Of a DNA stretch of 17,974 bases, positions 328 through 17,974 are shown in pieces. The notes below the pieces were generated by a model. The model worked only from the letters and a program-made list of their open reading frames with translations, had not been told where the DNA came from and ran no database searches. Each line of letters begins with the position of its first letter. The stretch's first letter is position 1. The DNA is from Clostridia bacterium (lineage in GTDB: Bacteria; Bacillota_A; Clostridia; Oscillospirales; CAG-272): assembly GCA_017462125.1 (NCBI GenBank), contig JAFTRQ010000099.1, positions 1 to 17,974 of the forward strand, in the 5' to 3' direction. A program made the position numbers and the translations under genes.

Positions 328-1326
328 TTATTCCCACTCGATCGTACCCGTAGGCTTCGGCGAGAGGTCGTAAAGTACGCGGTTGATGCCGGGAACTTCG
401 GAGGTGATTCTGTTTACGATCTTATGAAGCACCGCGTAGGGAATTTCCTCGATGGTAGCGGTCATAGCATCCTTGGTATTGACGGCACGGATGATTGCGG
501 GCCAGCCCTCGTAGCGGCTGTCGTCCTTCACGCCGACGCTCTTGATGTCGGGAATAACTACGAAATACTGCCAAACCTTCTCGGCAAGTCCGCACTTATC
601 GAACTCGTCGCGAAGGATCGCGTCTGCCTCGCGGAGAGCGTGGAGACGGTCACGGGTGATCGCGCCAAGACATCTTACGCCGAGACCGGGGCCGGGGAAG
701 GGCTGACGGTATACCATCGCGTGGGGAAGTCCGAGCGCTTCGCCAACGACTCTGACCTCGTCCTTGAACAAAAGCTTTACAGGCTCGCAAAGCTCAAACT
801 GAAGGTCCTCGGGAAGTCCGCCAACGTTGTGGTGAGACTTGACGGCCTTCTTGCCCTCTGCCTGCTTAACGCTCTCAAGAATGTCGGGGTAGATCGTACC
901 CTGCGCCAAAAACTCGATGCCCTCAAGCTTGCGGGCTTCTTCAGCGAAAATCTCAATAAATTCCTTGCCGATAATCTTTCTCTTTGTCTCGGGATCGGAA
1001 ACTCCTGCCAAAAGATCAAGATAACGGTCGGTTGCGTCGATGTAGATCAGATTTGCGTCGAGGGTCTTGCCGAATATGTCGATAACTGCCTCGCTCTCGC
1101 CCTTACGCATAAGGCCGTGATTTACGTGCACGCAAACCAACTGCTTGCCGATTGCTTTGATAAGAAGTGCCGCAACGACAGAGGAGTCAACTCCACCAGA
1201 AAGCGCCAAAAGCACCTTCTTGTCGCCGACCTGCGCGCGAATCTCTTTTACCTGCTCGTCAATGAATGCGTTGGCAAGCTCAAAGTTTGTAATTCTTTCC
1301 ATATTTTCAGGACGAACGTTGCTCAT
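328..1326 (-). CDS. guaA: GMP synthase, ATP-pyrophosphatase subunit (no glutaminase domain)
   Basis: This is the synthetase half of GMP synthase, which adenylates XMP with ATP and aminates it to GMP in de novo purine synthesis in the cytoplasm. The PP-loop SGGVDSS is at residues 43-49, RQPFPGPGLGVRCLG at about 207-221, and the family C-terminus GTIEWE ends the protein. It has 332 residues, against about 510-525 for the usual two-domain enzyme. The N-terminal class I glutamine amidotransferase domain is absent, and the DNA upstream of the start is non-coding repeat sequence, so this is not a hidden frameshift. Glutaminase may be a separate subunit elsewhere, or ammonia may be used directly; both are inferences. 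The ATG at 1326 is preceded by GGAAAGG with good spacing. An ATG at 1302 is a weaker alternative. Confidence 0.95.
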   Translation of the reverse strand: MSNVRPENMERITNFELANAFIDEQVKEIRAQVGDKKVLLALSGGVDSSVVAALLIKAIGKQLVCVHVNHGLMRKGESEAVIDIFGKTLDANLIYIDATDRYLDLLAGVSDPETKRKIIGKEFIEIFAEEARKLEGIEFLAQGTIYPDILESVKQAEGKKAVKSHHNVGGLPEDLQFELCEPVKLLFKDEVRVVGEALGLPHAMVYRQPFPGPGLGVRCLGAITRDRLHALREADAILRDEFDKCGLAEKVWQYFVVIPDIKSVGVKDDSRYEGWPAIIRAVNTKDAMTATIEEIPYAVLHKIVNRITSEVPGINRVLYDLSPKPTGTIEWE

Positions 1327-4275: not shown

Positions 4276-4337
4276 GGTAACAACACCGAAGAAAGGTGAA
4301 GCGATCCGTTGTGAAAAAACAAAGGGGGATAACAGTT

Positions 4338-5654
4338 ATGGAAAAGAAAAGATACGCCCACGTGGGCATTGGCGGCAGAGCGATCATGTATTATACCGCT
4401 ATTTCGAAGGATTTTAACGAATATGCGGAGCTTGTAGGCTTCTGTGATATCAACAGAAAGCGTATGGAATACGCGAATCGCAGACTTGTAAACCAGTGCG
4501 GATATCACGAGGTTCCTATGTACGGCGCCGACGAGTTTGAGAAGATGATCGAGGAGACCAAGCCCGATGTCGTTATCGTTACCTCGATGGACCGTACCCA
4601 CCACAAATACATCATCAAGGCTATGGAGTGCGGCTGTGACGTTGTTTCCGAGAAGCCGATGACCGTAGATGCAAAGAAGTGTCAGGAGATCGTTGATTGC
4701 ATTGAGAAAACAGGCAAAAATCTCCGTGTGACCTTCAATTACAGATATTCGCCCGACAGAACCAAGGTCCGCGATCTTATTATGAACGGTACGATCGGTG
4801 ACGTGAAGCAGATCCACTTTGAGTGGTTGCTCAACACCTCTCACGGTGCCGACTATTTCCGCCGTTGGCACAGAAATAAGAACAACAGCGGAGGCCTTCT
4901 CGTTCACAAGGCTACCCACCACTTTGACCTTGTCAATTTCTGGCTCGATTCCTATCCCACCAAGGTGTTTGCTCTCGGCGATCTGAAGTTCTACGGCAGA
5001 GAGAACGCGGAGGAGAGAGGCGTTACCAAGTTCTATTACCGCTCCTACGGCTCCGAGAACGCAAAGGGCGATCCCTTCGCAATGAACATCGCGGCAGGCG
5101 GCAACAAGGATCTTTACTTCGATTGCGAGTCTGAAGACGGTTACCTGCGCGACCAGAGCGTATTCGGCGACGGAATCAGCATCGAGGATACGATGAATCT
5201 CGTGGTTCAGTACGCGAACGGTGCGCAGATGTCCTATTCTCTCAACGCTTATTCTCCTTGGGAGGGCTACAGAGTTATGTTCACGGGAACCAAGGGCAGA
5301 CTTGAGCTTGAGGTCGTGGAGGCATTCGTTAAGGATCTTGGAGCAGAGCATGATAAGAACAGTGAGTATAAGGACAAGAAGATCACCGTTTATCCTATGT
5401 TCAAGCCCGCTTATGAGGTTGAAATTCCCGATTGTACGGGCGGCCACGGCGGCGGTGACCCCGTTATGCTCAACGATATCTTCAACCCCAATCCCCCCAA
5501 GGATCCCTACAGAAGAGCGGCAGGCTATATCGATGGCTGCATGAGCATTCTGACGGGTATCGCGGGCAACAAATCCATTGCCACAGGTCTGCCTGTTGAC
5601 GTCCTTTCTCTGGTAGACATTCCCGATTTCAAAAACAAATGGAAAAACCGTTAA
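4338..5654 (+). CDS. Gfo/Idh/MocA-family NAD(P)-dependent oxidoreductase
   Basis: This 438-residue protein oxidises or reduces a sugar or cyclitol using NAD(P). The N-terminal Rossmann fold has the glycine motif VGIGGRA (residues 9-15) and an acidic residue at the end of strand two (CD37), which favours NAD. The family EKP motif is at 105-107. The catalytic segment GLLVHKATHHFD is at about 186-197, with the usual family Asp/His arrangement. The C-terminal half is the alpha/beta substrate domain. It is somewhat longer than the typical 330-400 residues. The ATG at 4338 was chosen because AAAGGGGG precedes it at 9-bp spacing; an in-frame GTG at 4296 has no comparable site. A terminator follows, so it is probably monocistronic. 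Its place beside a hydrolase operon suggests it acts on a released sugar; the substrate is unknown. Confidence 0.9.
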   Translation: MEKKRYAHVGIGGRAIMYYTAISKDFNEYAELVGFCDINRKRMEYANRRLVNQCGYHEVPMYGADEFEKMIEETKPDVVIVTSMDRTHHKYIIKAMECGCDVVSEKPMTVDAKKCQEIVDCIEKTGKNLRVTFNYRYSPDRTKVRDLIMNGTIGDVKQIHFEWLLNTSHGADYFRRWHRNKNNSGGLLVHKATHHFDLVNFWLDSYPTKVFALGDLKFYGRENAEERGVTKFYYRSYGSENAKGDPFAMNIAAGGNKDLYFDCESEDGYLRDQSVFGDGISIEDTMNLVVQYANGAQMSYSLNAYSPWEGYRVMFTGTKGRLELEVVEAFVKDLGAEHDKNSEYKDKKITVYPMFKPAYEVEIPDCTGGHGGGDPVMLNDIFNPNPPKDPYRRAAGYIDGCMSILTGIAGNKSIATGLPVDVLSLVDIPDFKNKWKNR

Positions 5655-5704: not shown

Positions 5705-5740
5705 AGCCTCCGACAGGATTTTCTGTCGGAGGCTGTTTTT
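5705..5740 (+). terminator. Terminator of the Gfo/Idh gene
   Basis: A 12-bp perfect stem AGCCTCCGACAG (5705-5716) pairs with 5723-5734 around a GATTTT loop and is followed by GTTTTT. The AGCCTCCGAC/GTCGGAGGCT arms recur in the terminator at 11631. Confidence 0.9.
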
Positions 5741-5832: not shown

Positions 5833-5861
5833 TTTACAACTTCAATTTTGTGTGGTATAAT
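5833..5861 (+). promoter_or_regulatory. Sigma-A promoter of the GH106-like operon
   Basis: TTTACA (5833-5838), a 17-bp spacer and TATAAT (5856-5861), with TGG directly before the -10 giving an extended -10. The expected start near 5868 gives a leader of about 24 nt containing AAAGGAGG. Confidence 0.85.
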
Positions 5862-5891
5862 GTCTTCAAGTGAGTAAAGGAGGGTTTGTGT

Positions 5892-8800
5892 ATGAGTATA
5901 TTTGATAAGATCAAAGCTCCGCCAAAGGAATTCAGCCCTGCCGCTTTTTGGTTCTGGTACGGAGCCTTAAATCCGGATGAGCTTCGCCGTCAGATCGATC
6001 TGATGACGGAGCAGGGCGTGTATAACGGCTTTATGCACTCGCGCGCGTATCTGAAAACTCCCTATCTTGAGGACGAGTGGTGGGATGCGATCTCCGCTTG
6101 CGTGGATGAGGGCGAGAAAACAGGCTTTTATCCGTGGCTTTACGACGAATATGCATGGCCCAGCGGAACAGCGGGAAGCACCTTTGAGTACGGCTATCAA
6201 AAGCCGTCGAAAACGCTGGCGAGCGGTCAAAAAAATATGGGAAAAAGCCTTGCTTTGCAGCGTTTTCCGTCCGCTTCGGAATTTAAAGAGGCCGCCAATA
6301 CGGATGCAAATCAAAGCCTCCTTTGTCTGTTCTGCGGTGAGGGAACAGAATTTTTCCCCGTGGAAAAAGAGAACATTGACGCGGCAGAGGGAGAGATCCT
6401 TGCGTTTTACGTGAAGCTGCATCCCACTCTCGTGGACTATATGAACAAGGAAACGATCCGTGAGTTTATAAGCTATACTCACGAGGAATACAAAAAGCGC
6501 TACGGAGAGCACTTCGGAAGCAGGATCCCCGGTGTTTTCTTTGACGAGATCTATATGAACCATTTCGCTCCGTGGACGGAAAAGCTTCCCGAAGAGTTCA
6601 GGGCTCGTCGCGGATACGATCTGATGCCCAAGCTTTTTGCTCTTGCCGTTGACGGCGGCGAGAGGGAGAGAGAGGTGCGCCGTGATTTTTATAAGACCGT
6701 GGCAGAGCTTTACGAGGAGGCATTTTTCGATCAGATCGGCTCGTGGTGCGAGGAAAACAAGCTGCAGCTGACGGGACATACCGAGGAGGATATCTGGTTG
6801 CATCCCTCCCGTCAAGGAAACTATTTCAATACGGTGAGACATCTGCAGATCCCCGGTGCCGATTGCCACGACTACCGTTACCGCTTCCCGAGAAAAATCA
6901 CCTACAGAGAGCCTAAGCTTGCCGTTTCGGTCTCCAGAGCATACGGCAAGGAGCGCGCAATGTCCGAGGCGTTTGGCGGCGCGGGATGGGCCTGCACGCT
7001 GCAGGAGTTCAAAAGAGGAGTTAACACGGCGGGCGCTATGGGCATCTCTATGTTCACGCTTCACGGATTTTACAGCGAGATCGATCATCAGGGATCGCAG
7101 TCGGATTGGCCGGGCAACTTCTTTTTCCAAAATCCCTATTGGCGCTATTTCAAGCATTTTGCAGACTATATAACCCGCGTGTGCTATATCAATTCGTTGG
7201 GAACGCCTGTCGTAGACGTCGCTCTCTACTATCCCATTGAGGATCTGCAGAGGGAGACTCATATAAAGGGTATGACTCCCGTAGGCAGGGGCATCAACGC
7301 CGCCTTCAATACCGTGCTGAACACGCTGATCGAAAATCAGATCGATGTGGATATGGTGGATATGGAGAGCTTGATGAGAGCAGAGCTTGCAGATGGCAGA
7401 TTGTGCGTGGGCAAGGAGCGCTTTGCCGTGCTTCTGATGCCCGACGTTGTGAAGCCTGACGCGGCGCTTGCCCAAAAGCTTGAGGAGTTTACGAAGGTGG
7501 GCGGTAAGGTCATCCGTTACGCGACGCAAGAGTCGGCTTCGGGTGAGCTTGCGCTACCCGAGGAGATATGTAAGGCTGTTTTCGGGGAATTTTCACTTCC
7601 GAGGGACGTGTACGTGGTTGGAGATAACTGCGACCTCTTCGTAAATCATCGCAAAATAGAGGACAAGGATTTCTATTTCGTGGCAAACAGCGCGCCGCGG
7701 GCACGTGAATTAACGCTTTTCCTCCGCGAAAGGGGACACGCGAGAAGGCTGAGCCCCGAGAGCGGAGAGCTTGGCAAGGTGTTCCACAGCATAAATGAGG
7801 AAGGCACGCTGGTGAGTCTTACCCTTGAAGAGGACGAGGCCGTATGGATCGTCATCGAGCCCAAGGGAGGATATACCAAGCTGGAGCGCGAAAGGGTCGC
7901 CGAAGAGATGATCGTTGCAGGCAGATGGGAGTTTTTGCCTCTTCCTGCCGATCTTGACGGAGAAGCGCAGATCAGGCAAGAGCGAACCGAGCTGAAGATC
8001 CCGCTCGCCACGTTTTCGTCAAGCCTTCAGAGGGGCGGCAGGCAGATCAGAATACAAAACAAAGAGGGCGAGCTTGGCAACGTTGGCAGACATCTGAGCC
8101 TTTGGAACGCAAGCTGGATCACAAGACGCGTTGGTTGGAAGGACAGCTGCTCAAGCAAGGGGCTCTATTTCAGACGAAGCCTTTCTCTCGCGCAAAAGCC
8201 TGACGAGGCAAGGATCTGCTTATCCGCGGTCAATGAATGGAGCTTGTATATCAATGGCGAGGCTGTGTGCTCGTCAAAAGAGGGAATGCAGCCCACAACG
8301 CTCGATATCACCGCGTTTTTGCGCGCGGGAGAAAATGCTGTGTGCGTGTTCGTTCATAATCCCACGCCTCTTTCGAAGGGTACGCTTCTTGAAAAAGAGG
8401 AGCTTCTGCCACAGCTTCTGATCTCTCTGATAGCCGAGATCGAAATGAATTTTGGCGAGGAAAGGCAGACCGTCTGCACCGACAGTCAATGGATCACCTG
8501 CGAGTCTGCAGGCAAGGATTGGATAAGCTTGGATTACAAGCCTGCCGTGTCCTATATTGATGCCTCCGCCCGCTCGGGTATGGCGCCTGCCTTAAGACCG
8601 ACCGAATGGTCGTGGGCATGGGAGCGCGGAAAACCGCCGATGAAGCCCTTTGGAGATCTGCCAAGGTTTGGCGAATCGCTTCAATACCCGCAAAGAGTCT
8701 GCTACGGTATAGAATTGCCTTGCGGTACGGCGGCTGTAAAGCATCCGCGCGTGTCCGGAGAACACGTAGAAATATTGATCGACGGTATAGAGGCTTGCTT

Positions 8801-9320
8801 CAAGGACGGCGTTTGCACGCTTAAGCCCGACGGAAATACCCACTATATGCAGATCATTCTTACGGCAAACGGTGAAGCAGACGGCTTGTTGGAGAATGTT
8901 GCCGTTGAGCTTGTACCGCAGAGAGGCGCTCTTTGTGACTGGAGACTTCACGGACTCAAATGGTATTCGGGATTTGCTTCCTATAAAAACAGCTTTGCGC
9001 TGTCTAAGGGCAGCGGACGGTATATCCTTGATCCGGGTCAGATCTGTCAACAGGCTGAGGTTTGGGTAAACGGACGGAAGGCGGGCGAACGGGTCTGGGC
9101 ACCCTATAGACTTGATATTACCGAGTATTTGAAGGACGGCAACAACGAGATCGTCATCGTGGTCAGCAATTCCGCGGGCGTGGAGCATCAATTTATGCTT
9201 CTCGACGAGGGAGAGGCTGTGGGCTGGAACAGATATTGGAATTTCGACAATATACAAAGAGAGGGCGAAAAGCTGATTTCCGGCTTGCTCGGTCCCGTAA
9301 AGCTTTTGAGAATGATTTGA
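5892..9320 (+). CDS. GH106-like glycoside hydrolase (putative alpha-L-rhamnosidase), cytoplasmic
   Basis: This protein has 1142 residues. The N-terminal catalytic TIM-barrel region matches the GH106/GH106-like pattern: AFWFWYGALN (18-27), a conserved PWLYDEYAWPSGTAG (81-95), VFFDEIY with Asp218/Glu219, TGHTEED (294-300), and AMSEAFGGAGW (356-366), giving several candidate catalytic acids. Two jelly-roll regions follow. One contains LYINGEA and a Trp-rich stretch. The C-terminal one (about 1025-1142) resembles a GH2-type sugar-binding domain with AEVWVNGRKAGE and YRLDITEYL. There is no signal peptide, unlike secreted Bacteroides GH106 enzymes, so it should act on imported oligosaccharides. The ATG at 5892 follows AAAGGAGG at 8 bp; an upstream TTG at 5886 is not needed. 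It is the first gene of a three-gene operon. Rhamnose specificity is inferred from family. Confidence 0.85.
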   Translation: MSIFDKIKAPPKEFSPAAFWFWYGALNPDELRRQIDLMTEQGVYNGFMHSRAYLKTPYLEDEWWDAISACVDEGEKTGFYPWLYDEYAWPSGTAGSTFEYGYQKPSKTLASGQKNMGKSLALQRFPSASEFKEAANTDANQSLLCLFCGEGTEFFPVEKENIDAAEGEILAFYVKLHPTLVDYMNKETIREFISYTHEEYKKRYGEHFGSRIPGVFFDEIYMNHFAPWTEKLPEEFRARRGYDLMPKLFALAVDGGEREREVRRDFYKTVAELYEEAFFDQIGSWCEENKLQLTGHTEEDIWLHPSRQGNYFNTVRHLQIPGADCHDYRYRFPRKITYREPKLAVSVSRAYGKERAMSEAFGGAGWACTLQEFKRGVNTAGAMGISMFTLHGFYSEIDHQGSQSDWPGNFFFQNPYWRYFKHFADYITRVCYINSLGTPVVDVALYYPIEDLQRETHIKGMTPVGRGINAAFNTVLNTLIENQIDVDMVDMESLMRAELADGRLCVGKERFAVLLMPDVVKPDAALAQKLEEFTKVGGKVIRYATQESASGELALPEEICKAVFGEFSLPRDVYVVGDNCDLFVNHRKIEDKDFYFVANSAPRARELTLFLRERGHARRLSPESGELGKVFHSINEEGTLVSLTLEEDEAVWIVIEPKGGYTKLERERVAEEMIVAGRWEFLPLPADLDGEAQIRQERTELKIPLATFSSSLQRGGRQIRIQNKEGELGNVGRHLSLWNASWITRRVGWKDSCSSKGLYFRRSLSLAQKPDEARICLSAVNEWSLYINGEAVCSSKEGMQPTTLDITAFLRAGENAVCVFVHNPTPLSKGTLLEKEELLPQLLISLIAEIEMNFGEERQTVCTDSQWITCESAGKDWISLDYKPAVSYIDASARSGMAPALRPTEWSWAWERGKPPMKPFGDLPRFGESLQYPQRVCYGIELPCGTAAVKHPRVSGEHVEILIDGIEACFKDGVCTLKPDGNTHYMQIILTANGEADGLLENVAVELVPQRGALCDWRLHGLKWYSGFASYKNSFALSKGSGRYILDPGQICQQAEVWVNGRKAGERVWAPYRLDITEYLKDGNNEIVIVVSNSAGVEHQFMLLDEGEAVGWNRYWNFDNIQREGEKLISGLLGPVKLLRMI

Positions 9321-9334
9321 TAGGGAGAAGGGTT

Positions 9335-10108
9335 ATGAAAATACACTTTTTGGGCACCTGCGCGGGTACCGAGCCGATGCCGACCCGAAAGCATTCATCC
9401 ACCGCTGTGGAGTTGAACGGCGCGCTCTATTTTCTCGACGCAGGCGAGGGATGCTCCTACACCGCCCACAATATGGGTCTTGACCTGCTGACAACCAAGG
9501 AGATTTTTATATCACACACCCATCTCGACCACGTTGGCGGACTTTGCAATCTGCTTTGGACCGTCAGAAAGTTAAGATACCATTACGGCAAGAAAACGAA
9601 ATTTGATACGATCAACGTCTATATCCCCACGGCGGAAAGCTTTGAGGGGGTAATGAAGATATTGCGCAACAGCGAGGACGATTTCAAGTGCGACTTTGCC
9701 GTTGTAGAAAATACTGTTGTCGACGGTGAGATCTTTGACGACGGACAGCTTAAGGTGACGGCGGCGCATAATACCCACCTGAGGAGCAAGAATTTCGCGC
9801 CGTGGCAGTCCTTCTCCTATAAGCTTGAGGCCGAGGGAAAAAGCATCGTTTATTCGGGCGACGTGGCAAGCTATAGTGAGCTTGATGGGCTGATCGGCGA
9901 GCATTGCGATGCATTGATCATCGAAACGGGACATTTTGTGATAAACGACGTGTACGAATATACGAAGGATAAGAATGTTGACAGGATCTTCTTCACCCAC
10001 AACGGCAGAGAGATCATTTTCGGAACCGAGGAATGCAGGGAGCGCGTCGGAAGGCTTTTCGGCGGCTTGGCGACGATCTGCGAGGACGGTATGACGGTTG
10101 AATTATAA
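9335..10108 (+). CDS. Metallo-beta-lactamase-fold hydrolase, RNase Z-like subgroup
   Basis: This 257-residue protein has the complete di-zinc site: HTHLDH at residues 61-66, AHNTH at 144-148, SGD with Asp176, and THNG with His222. The start, FLGTCAGTEPMPTRKHSS, has the layout of RNase Z-like phosphodiesterases, but the long exosite arm of RNase Z is absent. The likely reaction is hydrolysis of a phosphodiester or cyclic/lactone ester; the substrate is unknown. It begins 14 bases after the GH106-like stop, and the next gene begins 15 bases after its own stop, so it is co-transcribed. The ATG at 9335 follows AGGGAGAAGGG. Upstream in-frame codons overlap the previous gene and were rejected as starts. 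Pairing with a phosphoesterase-containing fusion suggests phosphate chemistry in the pathway (inference). Confidence 0.85.
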   Translation: MKIHFLGTCAGTEPMPTRKHSSTAVELNGALYFLDAGEGCSYTAHNMGLDLLTTKEIFISHTHLDHVGGLCNLLWTVRKLRYHYGKKTKFDTINVYIPTAESFEGVMKILRNSEDDFKCDFAVVENTVVDGEIFDDGQLKVTAAHNTHLRSKNFAPWQSFSYKLEAEGKSIVYSGDVASYSELDGLIGEHCDALIIETGHFVINDVYEYTKDKNVDRIFFTHNGREIIFGTEECRERVGRLFGGLATICEDGMTVEL

Positions 10109-10123
10109 AGGACGGAGCGGGTT

Positions 10124-11623
10124 ATGAAAATTGCTTTTATTTGCGATACGCATTTGCCGAACAATCAGAATTCGGCGCAATACGCTTATCTTACGGAAAT
10201 CATCAAAAGGATGCGCGAGGATAAGATCGAAACGGTTATCAGCGTGGGAGATATCACCTCTTTCGGAGAAAAAGAGATCTTTATGCAGCATCTCGAGGAT
10301 CTGAAGGGCTTCGACCACCAATACGTTATCGGAAATGCCGAGGTGAGAAATGAAGCAACCAAAGGCTTTTTCCTCGAAGCCTCCAAGGGATTTTTGATCG
10401 AGCGCGGCGGCAGACGCTTTTTGGGCGTGGATACTCCTTATGATAAGATCGAGGAGCGTGACCGAGAAAGGGCGCGCACTCTCTCCGACGGAGACGTGCT
10501 TGTGATGCACAATTATGTGGAATCCCTGGAAAAGGACAGCCGAGAATTCGTTATCCGCCTGTGCGAGGAGAAGGCGCTGACGGTCATTCACGCGCATTCT
10601 CATATGAGACGGGACTATGCCTTGGGAAGATCGAGAGTGATCGGCCTCCGCGCGCTCGACCCCGATAAGTCCATCGGCGGCTATCCCTGTATCGATTATA
10701 TCGAGTTTGACGGGGGGCAGGTCGCCTATGAGGAGGTCTTGATCAAGAACCCCGTGGATGTTCTGAAGGATCTGAGGGCACATTTCGGTATCTCCTGCGT
10801 GGATAATCTGAGAGATCTGACCTATGCCCTTGAAAACAACGTATATGCCGTGGAGATCAGGACCAACGGCGCGGATTGGACGCCCGATCTTTCTTTGATC
10901 CCGCTGATCGAAAAGTGGAGAGCGAAAACAGGCGGTTATCTTTCGGTCCATTTCCCGAATCTTGGATATAAGAACGGGGAGATCACAGGCAAGGAGCAGT
11001 GGTATGCGGCAACAGAGTATGCCATCGCCATTCAAGCCGACGGCTTAACGATGCATCCGCCAAGAAGAGTGCGCGTATGCGATATGCCTTGCGGAGGAAA
11101 GCTTTGGAATGAATTTCTGGAGATCTATTTATACACCGTGAAAAGGATCCCTGCGCACGTCCGTGTCGGAATTGAAAATATGCATATAGAGGCAGGAGAG
11201 GGGAAAAACGAGCAGCGCTCCTTTGGGTATACGCCCGCAGAGGTAAGCGCCTTGATCGATGCCTTGAATGATGCTATGTCAGACCCTGGTCGTGTCGGTC
11301 ATATTTTGGACGTTGGCCACGCCAGAAACAACGGCCACTTGGCTTCGACCTATCCCATCAGCCGTTGGTATGAGATCATGGGGCAGAGAACCGTGGCATA
11401 TCACATCCATCAGGTTCTTGCCGCAGAAAAGGGAATGAAGAATCATAATGCCATTGAGAATTGGCTCGGTCCGATCATCAATTACGCTTCGTTCTTTTAC
11501 AGCTGGGAGAAAAAGGTGATCAATCATAGGCCCGTATTCCTTGAGGTGCAGGGATGCGTGAACTATCAAAAGAGCATCGAAGCCTTTGAAAGGCTTTTGC
11601 GTGATGCCAAAGACCTTTTGTGA
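10124..11623 (+). CDS. Fusion: calcineurin-type metallophosphoesterase + xylose-isomerase-like TIM barrel
   Basis: This protein has 499 residues in two apparent domains. Residues 1-205 look like a small calcineurin-like phosphoesterase: CDTHLP (D8, H10), VGDI (D43), GNAE (N71), MHN (H129) and HAHSH (H158, H160). The His of the usual GNH(D/E) motif is Ala72, while the other metal ligands remain. Residues about 215-499 look like an AP-endonuclease-2/xylose-isomerase-like barrel with E244, H276 (SVHFP), MHPP (310-313), IENMH with E351, LDVGHA (D396, H399), YHIHQ (426-430) and LEVQG with E474, which suit a metal-dependent isomerase, epimerase or nuclease-like site. The reading frame is continuous across the junction, with no internal ribosome site evident. 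It is the last gene of the operon. Coupling of dephosphorylation to sugar isomerisation is inference. Confidence 0.8.
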   Translation: MKIAFICDTHLPNNQNSAQYAYLTEIIKRMREDKIETVISVGDITSFGEKEIFMQHLEDLKGFDHQYVIGNAEVRNEATKGFFLEASKGFLIERGGRRFLGVDTPYDKIEERDRERARTLSDGDVLVMHNYVESLEKDSREFVIRLCEEKALTVIHAHSHMRRDYALGRSRVIGLRALDPDKSIGGYPCIDYIEFDGGQVAYEEVLIKNPVDVLKDLRAHFGISCVDNLRDLTYALENNVYAVEIRTNGADWTPDLSLIPLIEKWRAKTGGYLSVHFPNLGYKNGEITGKEQWYAATEYAIAIQADGLTMHPPRRVRVCDMPCGGKLWNEFLEIYLYTVKRIPAHVRVGIENMHIEAGEGKNEQRSFGYTPAEVSALIDALNDAMSDPGRVGHILDVGHARNNGHLASTYPISRWYEIMGQRTVAYHIHQVLAAEKGMKNHNAIENWLGPIINYASFFYSWEKKVINHRPVFLEVQGCVNYQKSIEAFERLLRDAKDLL

Positions 11624-11630
11624 TAAAAAC

Positions 11631-11665
11631 AGCCTCCGACGAGTATAAAAAACTTGTCGGAGGCT
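11631..11665. terminator. Bidirectional terminator between convergent genes
   Basis: AGCCTCCGAC (11631-11640) pairs with GTCGGAGGCT (11656-11665). Three more pairs, one of them G-T, extend the stem around a TATAAAAAA loop. It lies between the fusion gene stop (11623) and the GH78 stop (11699). The minus-strand tail GTTTTTA is the stronger T-tract; the plus side has TATTCATTT. Confidence 0.8.
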
Positions 11666-11698: not shown

Positions 11699-13972
11699 TC
11701 AGACCCGATATTCGGTAACCGTCAGCGCCGCCGATTCGGGAAGATGTGCTTCATATTTCATTCCACAGGGGATCGCCAAGGAGTACGTCTTTTTGCCGTC
11801 CGCAGTCTTGCAGCTGACGGCGATCAGCCCTTGGGGAGTGGGAACGACGCCCTCGAAGCTGTCAAACCTGTCGCAGGGCTCGAAACGGACGACCTCATAT
11901 CCTGCTTTTTCGGGGCGGATGCCGAGAACGTATGCGCTGAGCACGTAGGTGCAGCCTGCGCTCCAGGCGTGGCAGTTTGTGAAATACTTGGGCTTTGGCG
12001 CGTCGGTTGCGGGGCAGTATTCCCAAAACGTCTCCGTCCCCTTACGAAGCATTCCGCCAAAGCATCTGTCCATAAGCTCAAGCGCCCCTTCGCTGTCGCC
12101 CATCAGAAATCTTGCCTCTGCTTCATACGTGTTCATAAGAGGGGACACGGTATCGTTACCGCCGTACTGATGGGGGTCCGGTCTGTCGATAACGGTAGCG
12201 CCGTAAGGCGACCAGAGCTGCTTGCGCAGGGTTCTCATTGCCGCGTCTGCGCGGTCACCCTCGGCAATTCCGTAAAGCACGCAGAGTGCGTTGCCGTCCT
12301 GAGGCACGTAGCTTTGATCGAAGGTGTCAAGATAAGCCTGCTTTTCCTCGCTCCAGAGGCGGTCGTTGATCGCCTTTTTTACCTTTTCGGCAAGCGTGCG
12401 CCATTCCTTTGCGCGTTGATCTCCCACAACGTCGGCAAGCTCTGCCATGCAGATAAGACTCTTATACAAAAGCGCGTTGATCAGAGGCTTTTCCCCGAGA
12501 CGGTCGAGGGATTGAGTAAAATCTACGGAGGAGTTGGCAAAGCAGAACGCGCCCGAGAAAACAGGGAACTGATAGATCAGATCCGATGCGTTCATTTTGC
12601 CGATCATCCAATCGAGATTGCTTGCAAGCTCTTCGAAATGCTGCTCTGCAAGATGGGTGTCGTTATAGTAAAAGTAATGATTGTAGGCGTGAACGATCCT
12701 CCAGGCAGGGTATTCCCAGAGACCGACGTTCCGCATAAATCGGTCGGTGATGCGACCGACGTTGCTGGTCATTTCGGTATAGGAAAGCGAGCTTACCGTC
12801 AGGTCACCGTCGCCGAATGCGTAAGCGTCGATCAAAGCGGCAATAATGCCGTCTCCCGTGAAATATTTCATCTCGTTTCGGGGACAGCTTTCGTACTCCT
12901 GATGCTTGTTGATGTGAAGGGTGTATTTTCCAACCTCCCACATTTTGTTGAAGATCTCCTCGGAGCAATGGAAGTAGCCCTGCTTTTCGTGATTGATCAG
13001 ATCAAGACGGAAGCCGAAGGATTTCAGCGTAACCTTGGTGTTGAAGAGTAGCTTTACGTATTTTGCCGCCCTTCTGCGGAGCAAAAACAGCTTGTTTTCG
13101 CCCTTTTTCAGAGGGCTTTTCAGAGTCAAACGCTTGGCGGATATATTGTGCTGCGGGGTCTCAAACTCCAGATCCTCGGGATAGGTGGTGTAGTCGAAGC
13201 GAAGCTCAACCTCGCCCTCATCCTCCGCAATGCATTCAAGGCAAACGTATCCGCAGTAAAGCCTGTCAAATTCGTACATTACGTGAGATTTTTCCTCAGC
13301 GGAGACAAGGCAGTCGTCCCGCATCTCCATATTGGTATAGCGAATACTTGAGGGATAGGCATAGGTCTGCTTCGGGCGGGATACGTAGCGCTGATAGCCC
13401 TCCGCCACCTTTGCGACGGCATCGGGAACCGAGATCTCCTTTTCCTCGCGCCAAAGCGCCGCCGAGAGCCAGAAGCGGTCATATTCGCCTTGCGTTACTT
13501 GCGTGAACACCTGGGGCTTGGTCTGCCCGTCATCGCTTTCGCAAAGCCAGCTTTCATCCGTCGCGATCTTCAGCTCTTTCTCGCCGACGTTGATTTCAAG
13601 CTCTGCCGCCACGCAGGAGAATTGCGAGCCGCGGCGCTTTTGAAAGTCGCGCTCCACGGTCTGATAGTAGTGACCGCCCAAAACAAGAGCGATTTCGTTT
13701 TCACCAAGCTTCAGCAAAGACCTGCATTCGGCACAGCTTATGCGGTTTGCATATCTGCCGGTGTTGGTTCCAACGAAAGCGCCGTTGACGTAAGCGCCGC
13801 AAACGCCCACCGAGTCAAAACGGATCGCGGCAAAATCGGGAAGGGTGTCAAGCGTGAATCTTTTTTTGAAGCAGATCCACTCGTCACCCGTATGCTTGAT
13901 GATGCCGATGCGGCCGATGTCGGTGTGCGAATTCATATTTTCTGTTTTTCGAATGATATAGCTTGCGCTCAT
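11699..13972 (-). CDS. GH78-family alpha-L-rhamnosidase-like protein, cytoplasmic
   Basis: This protein has 757 residues. An N-terminal beta region contains AYVNGAFVG (about 60-68), as in the accessory sugar-binding domain of GH78. The concanavalin-like region is at roughly 200-325. The (alpha/alpha)6 barrel begins near GYFHCSEEIFNKMW (332-345). The catalytic segment ESCPRNEMKYFTGDG (361-375) keeps Glu367 and Asp374, but has Ser362 where the family usually has Asp in DCP. TETFWEYCP with Glu651 and the HAWSAG motif match the second catalytic region, and a C-terminal beta domain ends the protein. The length is slightly shorter than many GH78 enzymes (about 850-950). There is no signal peptide. 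The ATG at 13972 follows AAGGAGG at 6-bp spacing. It converges on the GH106-like operon. Hydrolysis of terminal alpha-L-rhamnose is the family activity; the Asp-to-Ser change leaves room for a different sugar or weak activity. Confidence 0.85.
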   Translation of the reverse strand: MSASYIIRKTENMNSHTDIGRIGIIKHTGDEWICFKKRFTLDTLPDFAAIRFDSVGVCGAYVNGAFVGTNTGRYANRISCAECRSLLKLGENEIALVLGGHYYQTVERDFQKRRGSQFSCVAAELEINVGEKELKIATDESWLCESDDGQTKPQVFTQVTQGEYDRFWLSAALWREEKEISVPDAVAKVAEGYQRYVSRPKQTYAYPSSIRYTNMEMRDDCLVSAEEKSHVMYEFDRLYCGYVCLECIAEDEGEVELRFDYTTYPEDLEFETPQHNISAKRLTLKSPLKKGENKLFLLRRRAAKYVKLLFNTKVTLKSFGFRLDLINHEKQGYFHCSEEIFNKMWEVGKYTLHINKHQEYESCPRNEMKYFTGDGIIAALIDAYAFGDGDLTVSSLSYTEMTSNVGRITDRFMRNVGLWEYPAWRIVHAYNHYFYYNDTHLAEQHFEELASNLDWMIGKMNASDLIYQFPVFSGAFCFANSSVDFTQSLDRLGEKPLINALLYKSLICMAELADVVGDQRAKEWRTLAEKVKKAINDRLWSEEKQAYLDTFDQSYVPQDGNALCVLYGIAEGDRADAAMRTLRKQLWSPYGATVIDRPDPHQYGGNDTVSPLMNTYEAEARFLMGDSEGALELMDRCFGGMLRKGTETFWEYCPATDAPKPKYFTNCHAWSAGCTYVLSAYVLGIRPEKAGYEVVRFEPCDRFDSFEGVVPTPQGLIAVSCKTADGKKTYSLAIPCGMKYEAHLPESAALTVTEYRV

Positions 13973-14310: not shown

Positions 14311-15012
14311 ATGAAGGTATCAGCTATCATCGCCACTGCAAGTGAAATCAAAATACAACTATCGGGACTTTCTGCGGATACAACCGCCGTTGCCAAAGCC
14401 TTCGTTCCCTTGCTTTGCGGCAACTCAAAAGAGAACAAGACTCCCGGCAGACTTATATTTGAAAGCAACACAACGCAAAAGGACGGCTTCGTTCTGCCAA
14501 GATATATAGGCGGCTACGATCTCTCGATCTGTCGATTTGAGGTTACGTTTGGTGGAGAGACGGTTGGCGGTGTGCGATACGTTACCGACTTTGGCGAAGG
14601 GTTTTCAAAGAACGACTTCAGCTTTACGGTCAAAAAGCCCGTGGGTACTTGGATCAATTCCACCGAGGAGGATATGGATCTCTTGGGCTTTGGCTGTATG
14701 ATGAACGAGCTCAACTGCGCGTGGATACAGACCGTGTCTCCAAAGGAGGATGACATCCCTCACGAGTGGAACGGCAAAACCTATTATTTTGATCGCGAAT
14801 TTATGGAGCTTTACGATTCCTTGATGCTTCCGTGCGTCAATCGCAGGATCCCGTGCCTGATCAGGCTTATCAATCGCTTCAGCTACCGCTTATGCGGCTC
14901 GGACAACGAGCTTGTCAAGATCATCGGACACCCCGACTACGAGCCCACGGGCTTTAACGAGCAGATGAGCGCATTCAACCTCAGAACAGAAGAGGGACTT
15001 GATATGTACTGA
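14311..15012 (+). pseudogene. DUF5722-like protein, apparently truncated at the 3' end
   Basis: The ORF encodes 233 residues after a good GGAGAGG site and an upstream extended -10, so its 5' end looks functional. The N-terminal part is beta-rich. Residues 108-190 (KKPVGTWINSTEEDMDLLG through NGKTYYF) resemble DUF5722 proteins, putative carbohydrate-active TIM-barrel proteins usually several hundred residues long. Reading stops at TEEGLDMY, inside what I recall as a conserved segment near the start of the barrel (AFN-T-EG--Y). No continuation is seen downstream, where the DNA becomes AT-rich and non-coding. A deletion or recombination removing the 3' part is the likely cause. It may be a short expressed protein instead; family assignment is from memory. 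Confidence 0.5.
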
Positions 15013-15577: not shown

Positions 15578-17974
15578 ATGAAGAAATTCTCCATGAAATT
15601 TATCGCGGGCTTACTTTCGGTATTGCTCGTGATAATGTCACTTCCCGTATCCGCATTTGCAATTGATCTTAGTGGTGATTCCTCGCCTCCCGCTGAAGAT
15701 GAGATTATTTATAACCGCGATATAGTTGAGCTCGTAGATATGCGCACGGCAACGGATAAATATTTTCGCCTTGATGACGGAAGTTATTACGTTGCGCACT
15801 ACAATTCAGATGTCCATTATCTTGATGATAATGGTGTATGGCAAGATATAGACAACTCTTTGGCAGTCAATGGTAGCGAGATTACCACCAGTGACGCTAA
15901 GATCAAACTTGCCAAGAAAACGACTGGCAACGGCGAGATTTTCACTATCCACGATGGCAATCGAAAACTCTCCCTCGCGTTGAATGGCGCTAACAAGAAA
16001 GTGGAGGGCATCATCAGCAACAATGAAGCTGAATTTGATGATGACGCTACTCAGCTTCAAAAAATGACAACCCTTGATAAGATATCCGCCTCGGTACGTT
16101 ATAACGACATTCTTGAAAATGTTGATTTGGAATATGTTATTAAAGGCGCAAATATCAAGGAAAACATCATTGTTAAAGCGAAAGCAAGTAATTATTCGTA
16201 TTCGTTTACGCTTTCGTTGAACAACCTTGTTGCCTCACTTAACGAGAAAAACGAAATTATTATTTCCGATTCGTCAACCTCCGAAATCGTTTATCTCATT
16301 CCCGCGCCTATCATGTGGGATGCAAACGATGTATATTCCGACGATATTGCAGTTTCTCTTACCGATAATAACAACGGCAAGTACACCTTGACGATTACCG
16401 CTGATTCCGATTGGATGAACGCAACCGACCGCGTTTATCCGATCACGATAGATCCTCCTATATACACTTCTTCCAGTTCAAGCGTTTTGGATTTGGATTT
16501 TTCAACATCGTCCACTTCTCCGAGCGTTAGTTCGGATTCGCTTTATGTGAGTTCCACTTGGAGAGCGTATTGGAAGCTTACAACGCTCCCCACCCTCCCT
16601 GCATCTGCGTACATAACAAACGCAGAATTTACATTAGAGTGTTTCACTTCCGATGTACTCCAAGGATATGTTGCTGTATACGATGTGTTGTCGGATTGGG
16701 ATAATACTTTAATTTACAGTAAAACGACCGCTACTACAGGTCACCAAGGCAAGCCCGCTGAACATTTTTCGGATTTCCAAGAAATCTATACAGAAGATTT
16801 TGATGGCACCGGTAATTATTATCCAAATGATTATTGGGGATATCATTGGAATGTTACCCCCATCGTTAAAAAATGGTATGCCGGAGAAAATTACGGATTG
16901 ATGTTAGCTCCTGCAACCGATACGACATTTACCGGAACAGCAAAGTTTTATTCAAACGACCATACAGTACAAGCGGAACGTCCGCAGCTTTGTATCGAAT
17001 ATCGCGATATGAAGGGCGTGGAAGATTATTGGACATTTTCTTCTCAAAGCGCAGGCTTTGCGGGAACCGGTTCTGTAAACAATGCAACCGGTAATCTTGT
17101 GTTCTCCATTCCAACGCTTACCACAACCGATGCGTTGATGCCGATTACTCCTGCAATGGTATATAATTCGGTACTCGCGGCCAAGGATTATTCTTACTCT
17201 AATGTTCAGACATCCAACGTAACCTCACTGGCGCCTAAAGGTTTTAAGCTCAACCTTCATGAAACGCTGATTAAGAAATCTTACATCGACGCGGAAGGCG
17301 CAACCGCTTACTATTTCATATGGGCTGATGCAGATGGAACAGAGCATTACTTTATGCCTACTGACACCGACGGCACCTATGCGGACGAGGACGGAATGCT
17401 TATGACCTTGGTCGAAAGCACTACCTGTACCATAACCGACAGTAATGAAAATGTAAGAACCTTCACATCTCGCTCCCGTCCTTCCGGAACGATATCCGGC
17501 TGGTATTTGTCGAGCATAGCAGACAGGAACGGCAACAAGGTCACTTTTACAGTGGACTCCAGTTATAGACCTATCACAATTAGCCTTGTTCCCAAAAACA
17601 GAACCGCAATTGAGCAAATGAAGATTGCATACAACTCCGACGGAGATCCCTATGTTGTATGGAATCCCAATTCCGGTGAAGGTGTTGTATTTAGAATGTC
17701 GTCCTCGGCCACTACCACCTCTACAGTTACAAGCGGCGGTAGCTATTTGCGACAGACTGTTCGCGCTCACGGCGGAACTACTGAAGCAGAGTGGCTTGCG
17801 TTTTATAACACAAATTCCAACACAAGCACTTCTACTATAACGGTTGATGCTGTGGCTCAGTATACATACAATTCTTCGGGATTGCTTCTTACTGCTACAA
17901 ACAATTTGTCGCAGTATAAGATCTCCTATGGATATGATTCTGCAAAGCGAGTCACATCTGTTGCCGAATATGCA
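15578..17974 (+). CDS. Secreted DNRLRE/RHS-type cell-surface protein (partial, runs off window end)
   Basis: The frame is open for all 799 codons from the ATG at 15578 (AAAGGA upstream) to the window end. Residues 1-28 are a clear signal peptide: MKKFSMKF, a hydrophobic core, and cleavage expected after AFA. A roughly 270-residue beta-rich N-terminal domain follows. A DNRLRE-like domain at about 297-480 has paired Trp strands (WNVTPIVKKWYAGENYGLML). The RHS-type N-terminal segment starts near 482 (YWTFSSQSAGFAGTGSVNNA). The last visible residues, YGYDSAKRVTSVAEYA, look like the first YD repeats. Such proteins usually continue for over 1000 residues to an RHS core and a variable C-terminal toxin, which is outside the window. 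The DNA is more AT-rich than the carbohydrate locus by eye. A contact-dependent toxin or surface role is inferred from family. Confidence 0.85.
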   Translation, partial: MKKFSMKFIAGLLSVLLVIMSLPVSAFAIDLSGDSSPPAEDEIIYNRDIVELVDMRTATDKYFRLDDGSYYVAHYNSDVHYLDDNGVWQDIDNSLAVNGSEITTSDAKIKLAKKTTGNGEIFTIHDGNRKLSLALNGANKKVEGIISNNEAEFDDDATQLQKMTTLDKISASVRYNDILENVDLEYVIKGANIKENIIVKAKASNYSYSFTLSLNNLVASLNEKNEIIISDSSTSEIVYLIPAPIMWDANDVYSDDIAVSLTDNNNGKYTLTITADSDWMNATDRVYPITIDPPIYTSSSSSVLDLDFSTSSTSPSVSSDSLYVSSTWRAYWKLTTLPTLPASAYITNAEFTLECFTSDVLQGYVAVYDVLSDWDNTLIYSKTTATTGHQGKPAEHFSDFQEIYTEDFDGTGNYYPNDYWGYHWNVTPIVKKWYAGENYGLMLAPATDTTFTGTAKFYSNDHTVQAERPQLCIEYRDMKGVEDYWTFSSQSAGFAGTGSVNNATGNLVFSIPTLTTTDALMPITPAMVYNSVLAAKDYSYSNVQTSNVTSLAPKGFKLNLHETLIKKSYIDAEGATAYYFIWADADGTEHYFMPTDTDGTYADEDGMLMTLVESTTCTITDSNENVRTFTSRSRPSGTISGWYLSSIADRNGNKVTFTVDSSYRPITISLVPKNRTAIEQMKIAYNSDGDPYVVWNPNSGEGVVFRMSSSATTTSTVTSGGSYLRQTVRAHGGTTEAEWLAFYNTNSNTSTSTITVDAVAQYTYNSSGLLLTATNNLSQYKISYGYDSAKRVTSVAEYA

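Follow-up and report, generated by a model that had tools for sequence, protein, structure and literature searches.

The question raised by this locus is what kind of enzyme results when a calcineurin-type metallophosphoesterase and a xylose isomerase-like TIM barrel are carried on one polypeptide. The gene lies at positions 10124..11623 on the forward strand of the stretch of DNA that was analysed (17,974 nucleotides, hereafter the window), has an RBS-like GGACGGAG 5' of its ATG, and encodes 499 aa. The metallophosphoesterase domain covers residues 1-207 (10124..10744, + strand), with D8, H10, D43, N71, H129, H158 and H160 as ligands, and the barrel, recognized by its PF01261 match, its alignment with endonuclease IV (Endo IV) and its conservation, covers residues 211-495 (10754..11608, + strand), with H276, H311, E351, D396, H399, H427, H441 and E474 as ligands of the Endo IV type. 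A preliminary description of this DNA had claimed an uninterrupted frame joining the two domains, with calcineurin-type motifs and barrel metal residues, and had proposed a domain search and a structure prediction as checks. The frame is open and contains both Pfam domains, as claimed, and the conservation of the ligands in homologues supports the motifs. Curated cut-offs were exceeded both by the calcineurin-type metallophosphoesterase match (PF00149/PF12850; 34.7 bits with a cut-off of 27, 31.6 bits with a cut-off of 21.5) and by the xylose isomerase-like barrel match (PF01261; 38.9 bits vs. 31.1), and the predicted structure of the 499-aa protein is confident (pLDDT 93.6, pTM 0.91). The single ORF 10124-11623 is a genuine fusion. 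Literature searches in open-licence papers found nothing on this architecture, a sequence search of solved structures with the fusion gave no credible match, and plasmid and phage searches returned no match.

The architecture is conserved well beyond the window. At E<=0.001, 222 proteins match the fusion, and the 120 listed among them align over 96-100% of the query; the few names that they carry are generic ("TIM barrel protein", "metallophosphoesterase family protein"). Genome contigs yielded 27 loci with the fusion, at 25-56% identity, 16 of them labelled Clostridia, Oscillospiraceae, Lachnospiraceae or Ruminococcaceae, six Gemmatimonadota/Gemmatimonadetes, four Latescibacterota and one simply "bacterium". 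Its distribution is patchy: the fusion occurs in 1/51 genomes in the order of G001, in 5/16 in the order of G002 and in 18/64 in the phylum of G006, one of the last being a weak N-terminal match only, while the class of G001 (27/391 genomes) and the family of G003 (9/397) contain matches that are strong over both domains in only 10 and 2 genomes, respectively. The survey of fused versus split versions proposed in the preliminary description yielded no secure split pair. A barrel-only search (<=481 aa) gave 30 matches, which comprise shorter or truncated two-domain members and, for the most part, fragments on short contigs, and the five matches of a metallophosphoesterase-only search have ends that look like fragments or broken frames; a possible free barrel is P0135, a protein of 278 aa that begins close to where the two domains meet and comes from a contig of 4.2 kb. 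Two observations on individual members are added. L019 (Latescibacterota; its contig is shared with L055 and L061) has an in-frame TAG ahead of the last barrel ligands, which may mean that the gene is broken, that the stop is recoded or that the sequence contains an error, and only the stretch ahead of the TAG was used. Two divergent fusion genes occur in the single genome bin of isolate SIG676: L007, which belongs to the near group and has a metallo-β-lactamase (MBL) gene, and L016, which is distant and has a separate PF01261 gene directly downstream.

Residue conservation was scored in 37 members spanning the Clostridia, Gemmatimonadota and Latescibacterota groups and in the 120 listed homologues. 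All fifteen ligands of both sites are complete in 113 of these 120; the other seven have gaps at residue 8 only, except that two are also gapped at residue 10, and substitution of a ligand, in either site, was found in none of the 120. Both sites therefore look active as far as conservation can tell, and the activity of both halves, which the preliminary description had put forward conditionally, gains support from these complete ligand sets. For the N-terminal domain, the dimetal pattern DxH, GD, GN, H, GHxH is present, with all seven ligands in 113 of the 120; in the set of 37, D8 and H10 are kept in 36 (one gap) and D43, N71, H129, H158 and H160 are also kept. A one-to-one, forced global comparison aligned all seven with those of Escherichia coli CpdA (E 5e-16). 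Position 72, where CpdA has the catalytic histidine of its GNH motif, is S or A in 36/37 members, and H occurs there in 1/37 and in 2/120 of the listed homologues. The equivalent motif is GNHD in CpdA and GNCD, with Cys, in E. coli YfcE, so this histidine is not universal in the superfamily. From its sequence, we favour a class III-type (CpdA/GpdQ-like) dimetal phosphoesterase for this domain. A D179-P-D-K182 motif (residues 179-182; 10658..10669, + strand) that follows the phosphoesterase core, ahead of the barrel, is near invariant across phyla, D179 and K182 both being present in 37/37 diverse sequences and, in the wider set, in 120/120 and 119/120, respectively.

The barrel was compared with Endo IV, for which we take the zinc ligands of E. 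coli Nfo to be H69, H109, E145, D179, H182, H216, D229, H231 and E261. In a profile built from Nfo and 14 sequences above the TIGR00587 cut-off, each of these nine positions is invariant (15/15), and profile-profile alignment with the fusion barrel (E 3.3e-6, Prob 87.8) placed them at H276, H311, E351, D396, H399, H427, K439, H441 and E474. Eight of the nine are thus identical, and the full set of nine is not found, since D229 falls on K439, which is variable in the fusion. Seven of the eight (H276, H311, E351, D396, H399, H427 and E474) also align with Endo IV in both multiple alignments; H441 was matched to H231 in one of these and was off by one in the other, so that this match holds in only two of the three alignments. 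Single sequences aligned only weakly with the Endo IV profile: P0001, L014, L018 and L026 show the same seven positions, His stands at the H231 position in L018 and P0145 only, and, besides D229, P0145 misses 2/9 and L008, whose PHP tail was included, 5/9. A forced global single-sequence alignment put H276 out of register, and the result given here is that of the profile alignment. Within the set of 37, H276, H311 and H399 are found in all members, E351, D396 and H427 are kept, H441 is present in 36 (one gap) and E474 in 35 (two gaps). E244, another residue of the barrel, is conserved in 36/37.

Such conservation bears on the possibility that the protein is one working enzyme, in which catalysis is left to the metallophosphoesterase and the barrel serves for substrate binding or for the shape of the protein. 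This is possible in principle, and the near-invariant D179-P-D-K182 motif between core and barrel speaks for it. However, a noncatalytic barrel would be expected to have lost ligands somewhere, and all eight are present in 120/120 listed homologues and across phyla; we therefore disfavour such a barrel and consider this explanation improbable.

A more serious competitor is offered by the isomerases. PF01261 includes many isomerases, and E-D-H-E is the standard metal set. The phosphoesterase could dephosphorylate a sugar that the barrel isomerises or epimerises, or the reverse, leading glycan sugars into central metabolism. Consistent with this, the fusion barrel belongs to PF01261, its E351, D396, H427 and E474 set is present in 120/120 listed homologues, E244 is conserved as described, epimerases are among the top matches in a fold search with the barrel, ranked as high as Endo IV, and genes of glycan degradation occur close to the fusion gene in the window, L004, L005, L006, L015, L016 and L113. 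The reading was examined against six controls with isomerase, epimerase or dehydratase function (UlaE, Hyi, FrlC, YcjR, psicose epimerase and IolE). One-to-one alignments to Endo IV were good only for psicose epimerase (Prob 93) and FrlC (Prob 75) and weak for IolE, UlaE, Hyi, YcjR and CbiR (Prob 0.2-3.2); all barrel groups were therefore aligned jointly in two ways, and the ligands of controls and CbiR were scored there. Equivalents of both H276 and H311 occur together in 15/15 Endo IV and 2/2 CbiR sequences and in 0/6 controls. No His was seen at either extra position in psicose epimerase (7 sequences, any of three alignments), IolE (12 or 11 sequences), YcjR or Hyi; UlaE has H at the first in both multiple alignments, S there in the one-to-one alignment, and no His at the second, and for FrlC one of three alignments shows H at the second. 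In addition, none of the NCBIfam isomerase models matches the fusion up to E 1. The profile of the fusion barrel reached E 0.19 with psicose epimerase and 0.1 with IolE, against 3.3e-6 with Endo IV, values that serve only as a guide because profile depths differ. Because many uncharacterised PF01261 barrels share the same ligands, we keep the isomerase reading as a possible, although unlikely, explanation. The label "isomerase-like" of the preliminary description thus holds at the level of the PF01261 superfamily and not beyond it, and its suggestion that the protein dephosphorylates and then isomerises a sugar phosphate is less likely than two phosphoester-cleaving sites, given the extra His pair and the lack of a match to an isomerase model.

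The nearest precedent for the ligand set was found in CbiR. The report on this cobamide remodelling enzyme (PMC7733943) describes a barrel of the AP endonuclease 2 superfamily that hydrolyses a cobamide (adenosylcobalamin), is inhibited by EDTA, is sensitive to oxygen and has little or no activity in many single mutants of conserved residues. In two sequences above the NF041277 cut-off, both alignments gave equivalents of H69, H109, E145, D179, H182, H216, H231 and E261, and an equivalent of D229 was absent in CbiR and in the fusion family alike. All 8/9 positions are common to the fusion and CbiR in one multiple alignment; the other shows seven of them. Since CbiR shows the same eight-ligand set, the reading as a two-site phosphoesterase is raised and the isomerase reading lowered. 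Still, the profile comparison of the fusion barrel with CbiR (E 0.048 over 33 columns) amounts to no match, and neither the CbiR model NF041277 nor the Endo IV model TIGR00587 matches the fusion up to E 1; as the same holds for the isomerase models, the barrel was filed in none of these families. The closest profile was that of 22 unclassified barrels (E 2.7e-14), in which the ligands are mostly shared too; these may include isomerases, and their ligands are not independent evidence because they were chosen by weak Endo IV similarity. In a tree with 34 of the 37 barrels (L008 and L010 were left out for their long PHP tails and L019 as too short) and 11 of 12 IolE sequences, the fusion barrels group together with a support of 1.0, and the placement of this clade among the other barrels has a support of 0.48.

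A third metallohydrolase frequently accompanies the fusion. It was found beside or within the fusion in at least 13 of 43 loci (raw count), as an MBL gene in six, a fused PHP domain in four and an adjacent PHP-like gene in three. These counts are lower bounds, since partners were sought by BLAST with three queries (the window MBL and two PHP sequences), some loci end at contig ends, and eight of the 43 (G062, G063, G128, G132, G131, G095, G098 and G116) have at most 1.5 kb of flank per side. The window, L001, L003, L004, L007 and L114, which make up 6/10 of the near group (>=36% identity), have the MBL gene immediately 5' of the fusion and in the same orientation; BLAST found none in L002, L005, L006 and L113 of that group. 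Its metal-ligand positions, HxHxDH and further ones, appear conserved by eye. Three-domain chains with a C-terminal PHP domain are L008:9989-12157, L010:111-2270, G181 (L118:8555-10696, - strand) and G228 (L117:9474-11624), which place three metallophosphoesterase-type folds on a single chain. The Pfam PHP scores are 35.8 bits in L008 and 26.4 bits, exactly the cut-off of 26.4, in L010; G181 and G228 are 57% and 47% identical to the PHP region of L008, and the PHP-type metal positions are kept by eye. The adjacent PHP-like genes, directly upstream in L013 and L027 and directly downstream in L021, form a weaker case and are of another PHP type than the fused domains, since the L027 gene is below the cut-offs (PHP 25.2 vs. 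26.4; CehA/McbA model 74 vs. 80) and those of L013 and L021 were judged by identity to it (92% and 24%). L004 has a PHP-like gene about 2 kb downstream besides its MBL gene. Separate PF01261 barrel genes (L004:8228-9097 and L016:11539-12501) adjoin an MBL gene or the fusion, and the former has weak matches, below cut-off, to the IolO and CbiR models.

In the window, the fusion follows two genes on the same strand, a GH106-like alpha-L-rhamnosidase (5886..9320; Glyco_hydro_106, E 2.4e-32) and an MBL-fold hydrolase of 257 aa (9335..10108; Lactamase_B_2, E 4.4e-10, frame from 9236), with gaps of 14 bases before the MBL start and 15 bases between MBL and fusion. A consensus scan placed a promoter-like TTTACA-17-TATAAT with TG before the second hexamer (5833..5861, + strand; 11/12 matches) ahead of the first gene, weak evidence alone because 13 such sites were found against 7.4 expected, and a terminator-like 14-pair hairpin (11631..11665, + strand) 7 bases past the fusion stop codon, terminator-like sites numbering 11 against 8.3 expected. 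Taken together, the short gaps and both sites suggest that the three genes are likely to form one transcription unit with the fusion last. The Gfo/Idh/MocA oxidoreductase gene upstream (4296..5654, + strand; Pfam) is followed by a terminator-like 13-pair hairpin (5705..5734, + strand) located before the GH106-like gene, and probably forms a separate unit; a GH78-like alpha-L-rhamnosidase gene (11699..13972, - strand; Bac_rhamnosid6H, E 6e-17) is convergent with the fusion. Besides these GH106 and GH78 genes, the glycan enzymes near the fusion comprise GH28 in L015, GH88 in L005, a GH109-type enzyme in L006, heparinase and GH2 in L004, alpha-L-fucosidase in L016 and GH78 in L113, and housekeeping neighbours also occur (polyamine transporter in L001, FeoB in L117, NRDD in L118). 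As selected neighbours were scanned, the glycan context is a tendency and not a count, and no counterpart of the window's GH106-like gene was found beside the fusion at the other loci. Two pathways considered for the locus were dropped. One was a phosphonate pathway: the match of the MBL to PhnP is weak (E 8e-5, well under the cut-off), and the upstream ABC transporter of L001 appears to be of the polyamine type. The other, a 3-keto-glycoside pathway, had been suggested by the Gfo/Idh/MocA gene, which is followed by a terminator-like site of its own and for which BLAST (E 1e-5) found no homologue directly beside the fusion at the other loci. Elsewhere in the window, a 233-aa ORF (14311-15012) matches DUF5722 only over positions 15-121 of 393 (E 1e-8) and may thus be truncated; by eye, 328-1326 (- strand) looks like the ATP-pyrophosphatase portion of GMP synthase, with no glutaminase domain in frame, and 15578-17974 is a long secreted-looking ORF that runs past the window end and resembles RHS/wall-associated repeat proteins.

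Calcineurin-type metallophosphoesterases, Endo IV-type barrels and MBL folds all include nucleases, and a nucleic-acid enzyme has to be weighed, in which a Mre11/CpdA-like phosphoesterase, an Endo IV-like barrel and an RNase Z-like MBL would process or repair DNA or RNA. Foldseek returned Mre11 and Endo IV among its matches, and the window MBL resembles the RNase_Z model, below cut-off (E 1.4e-23, frame from 9236). Against it, the fusion lacks a TIGR00587 match, separate Endo IV genes above cut-off coexist with it in some genomes (G067, G006, G098 and G132), several neighbours are glycan genes, and PADLOC defence families gave no match to the fusion. We regard this explanation as very improbable. 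The MBL had no PADLOC match either, and the three-domain L008 protein gave PDC-S10 at E 6.4e-4.

Therefore, we hypothesize, with about even confidence, that the fusion is a two-site metallophosphoesterase, with a diesterase barrel and an N-terminal domain that cleaves a further phosphoester. The Endo IV/CbiR-type zinc barrel would cleave a phosphodiester in a small molecule, the N-terminal domain would cut the phosphate bond that remains after this step, and in some lineages an MBL in trans, or a PHP domain in cis or in trans, might perform another step. The eight Endo IV/CbiR-type ligands, the fused phosphoesterase and the frequent third metallohydrolase are most simply explained if a small phosphodiester, perhaps linked to a sugar, is hydrolysed stepwise; hydrolysis by the barrel, the order of the steps and a small sugar-linked substrate are what we infer. 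The protein is presumably cytoplasmic, and no signal peptide is apparent by eye. Counted against the two-site phosphoesterase were the unconserved D229, the lack of a CbiR profile match, the equal rank of epimerases in the fold search, the missing GNH histidine of CpdA, the varied neighbours, some of them housekeeping genes, the single His of UlaE and FrlC, the shifted H441 in one alignment, the weak single-sequence alignments and a closest profile that may include isomerases. More tentatively, these proteins may constitute an undescribed multi-phosphoesterase family, in which a metallophosphoesterase and a zinc barrel, with PHP in cis or an MBL or PHP-like neighbour, dismantle a phosphodiester-linked sugar compound stepwise. 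If true, such a family would bring Endo IV-type chemistry to carbohydrate metabolism. Although Clostridia and Gemmatimonadota/Latescibacterota have this conserved architecture in common, the few names listed for it are generic. A barrel with Endo IV ligands that is joined to a phosphoesterase and often accompanied by a third metallohydrolase of either of two unrelated folds (MBL or PHP) offers a testable lead to a putative phosphodiester-cleaving pathway. Caution is advised in that such barrels should not be called sugar isomerases by default.

Compared with known systems, the fusion differs from the class III metallophosphoesterases CpdA, GpdQ and Rv0805 (PF00149, PF12850) by S or A in place of the GNH histidine (36/37), the additional near-invariant D-P-D-K motif and the attached barrel. 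With Endo IV (Nfo; TIGR00587, PF01261) it shares the barrel fold and 8/9 zinc ligands at aligned positions, whereas variable K439 at D229, a separate clade (support 1.0) and the attached phosphoesterase set it apart. The isomerases, epimerases and dehydratases of PF01261, as represented by the six controls, share the barrel fold and most of the E-D-H-E set and lack the H276 and H311 pair, although UlaE may have the first and FrlC perhaps the second. CbiR, a hydrolase barrel of the AP endonuclease 2 superfamily according to its report (PMC7733943), has the eight ligands in common with the fusion and likewise misses D229, but is a single domain instead of two. In the ebo cluster (PMC5133447), EboB is TatD-like, EboE is a barrel and EboF is a phosphodiesterase. 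The cluster resembles the fusion in that the neighbours of its xylose isomerase-like barrel gene code for a metallo-dependent hydrolase and a predicted phosphate hydrolase; it differs in having separate genes, a phosphoesterase of another fold, and UbiA and sugar phosphate cyclase genes.
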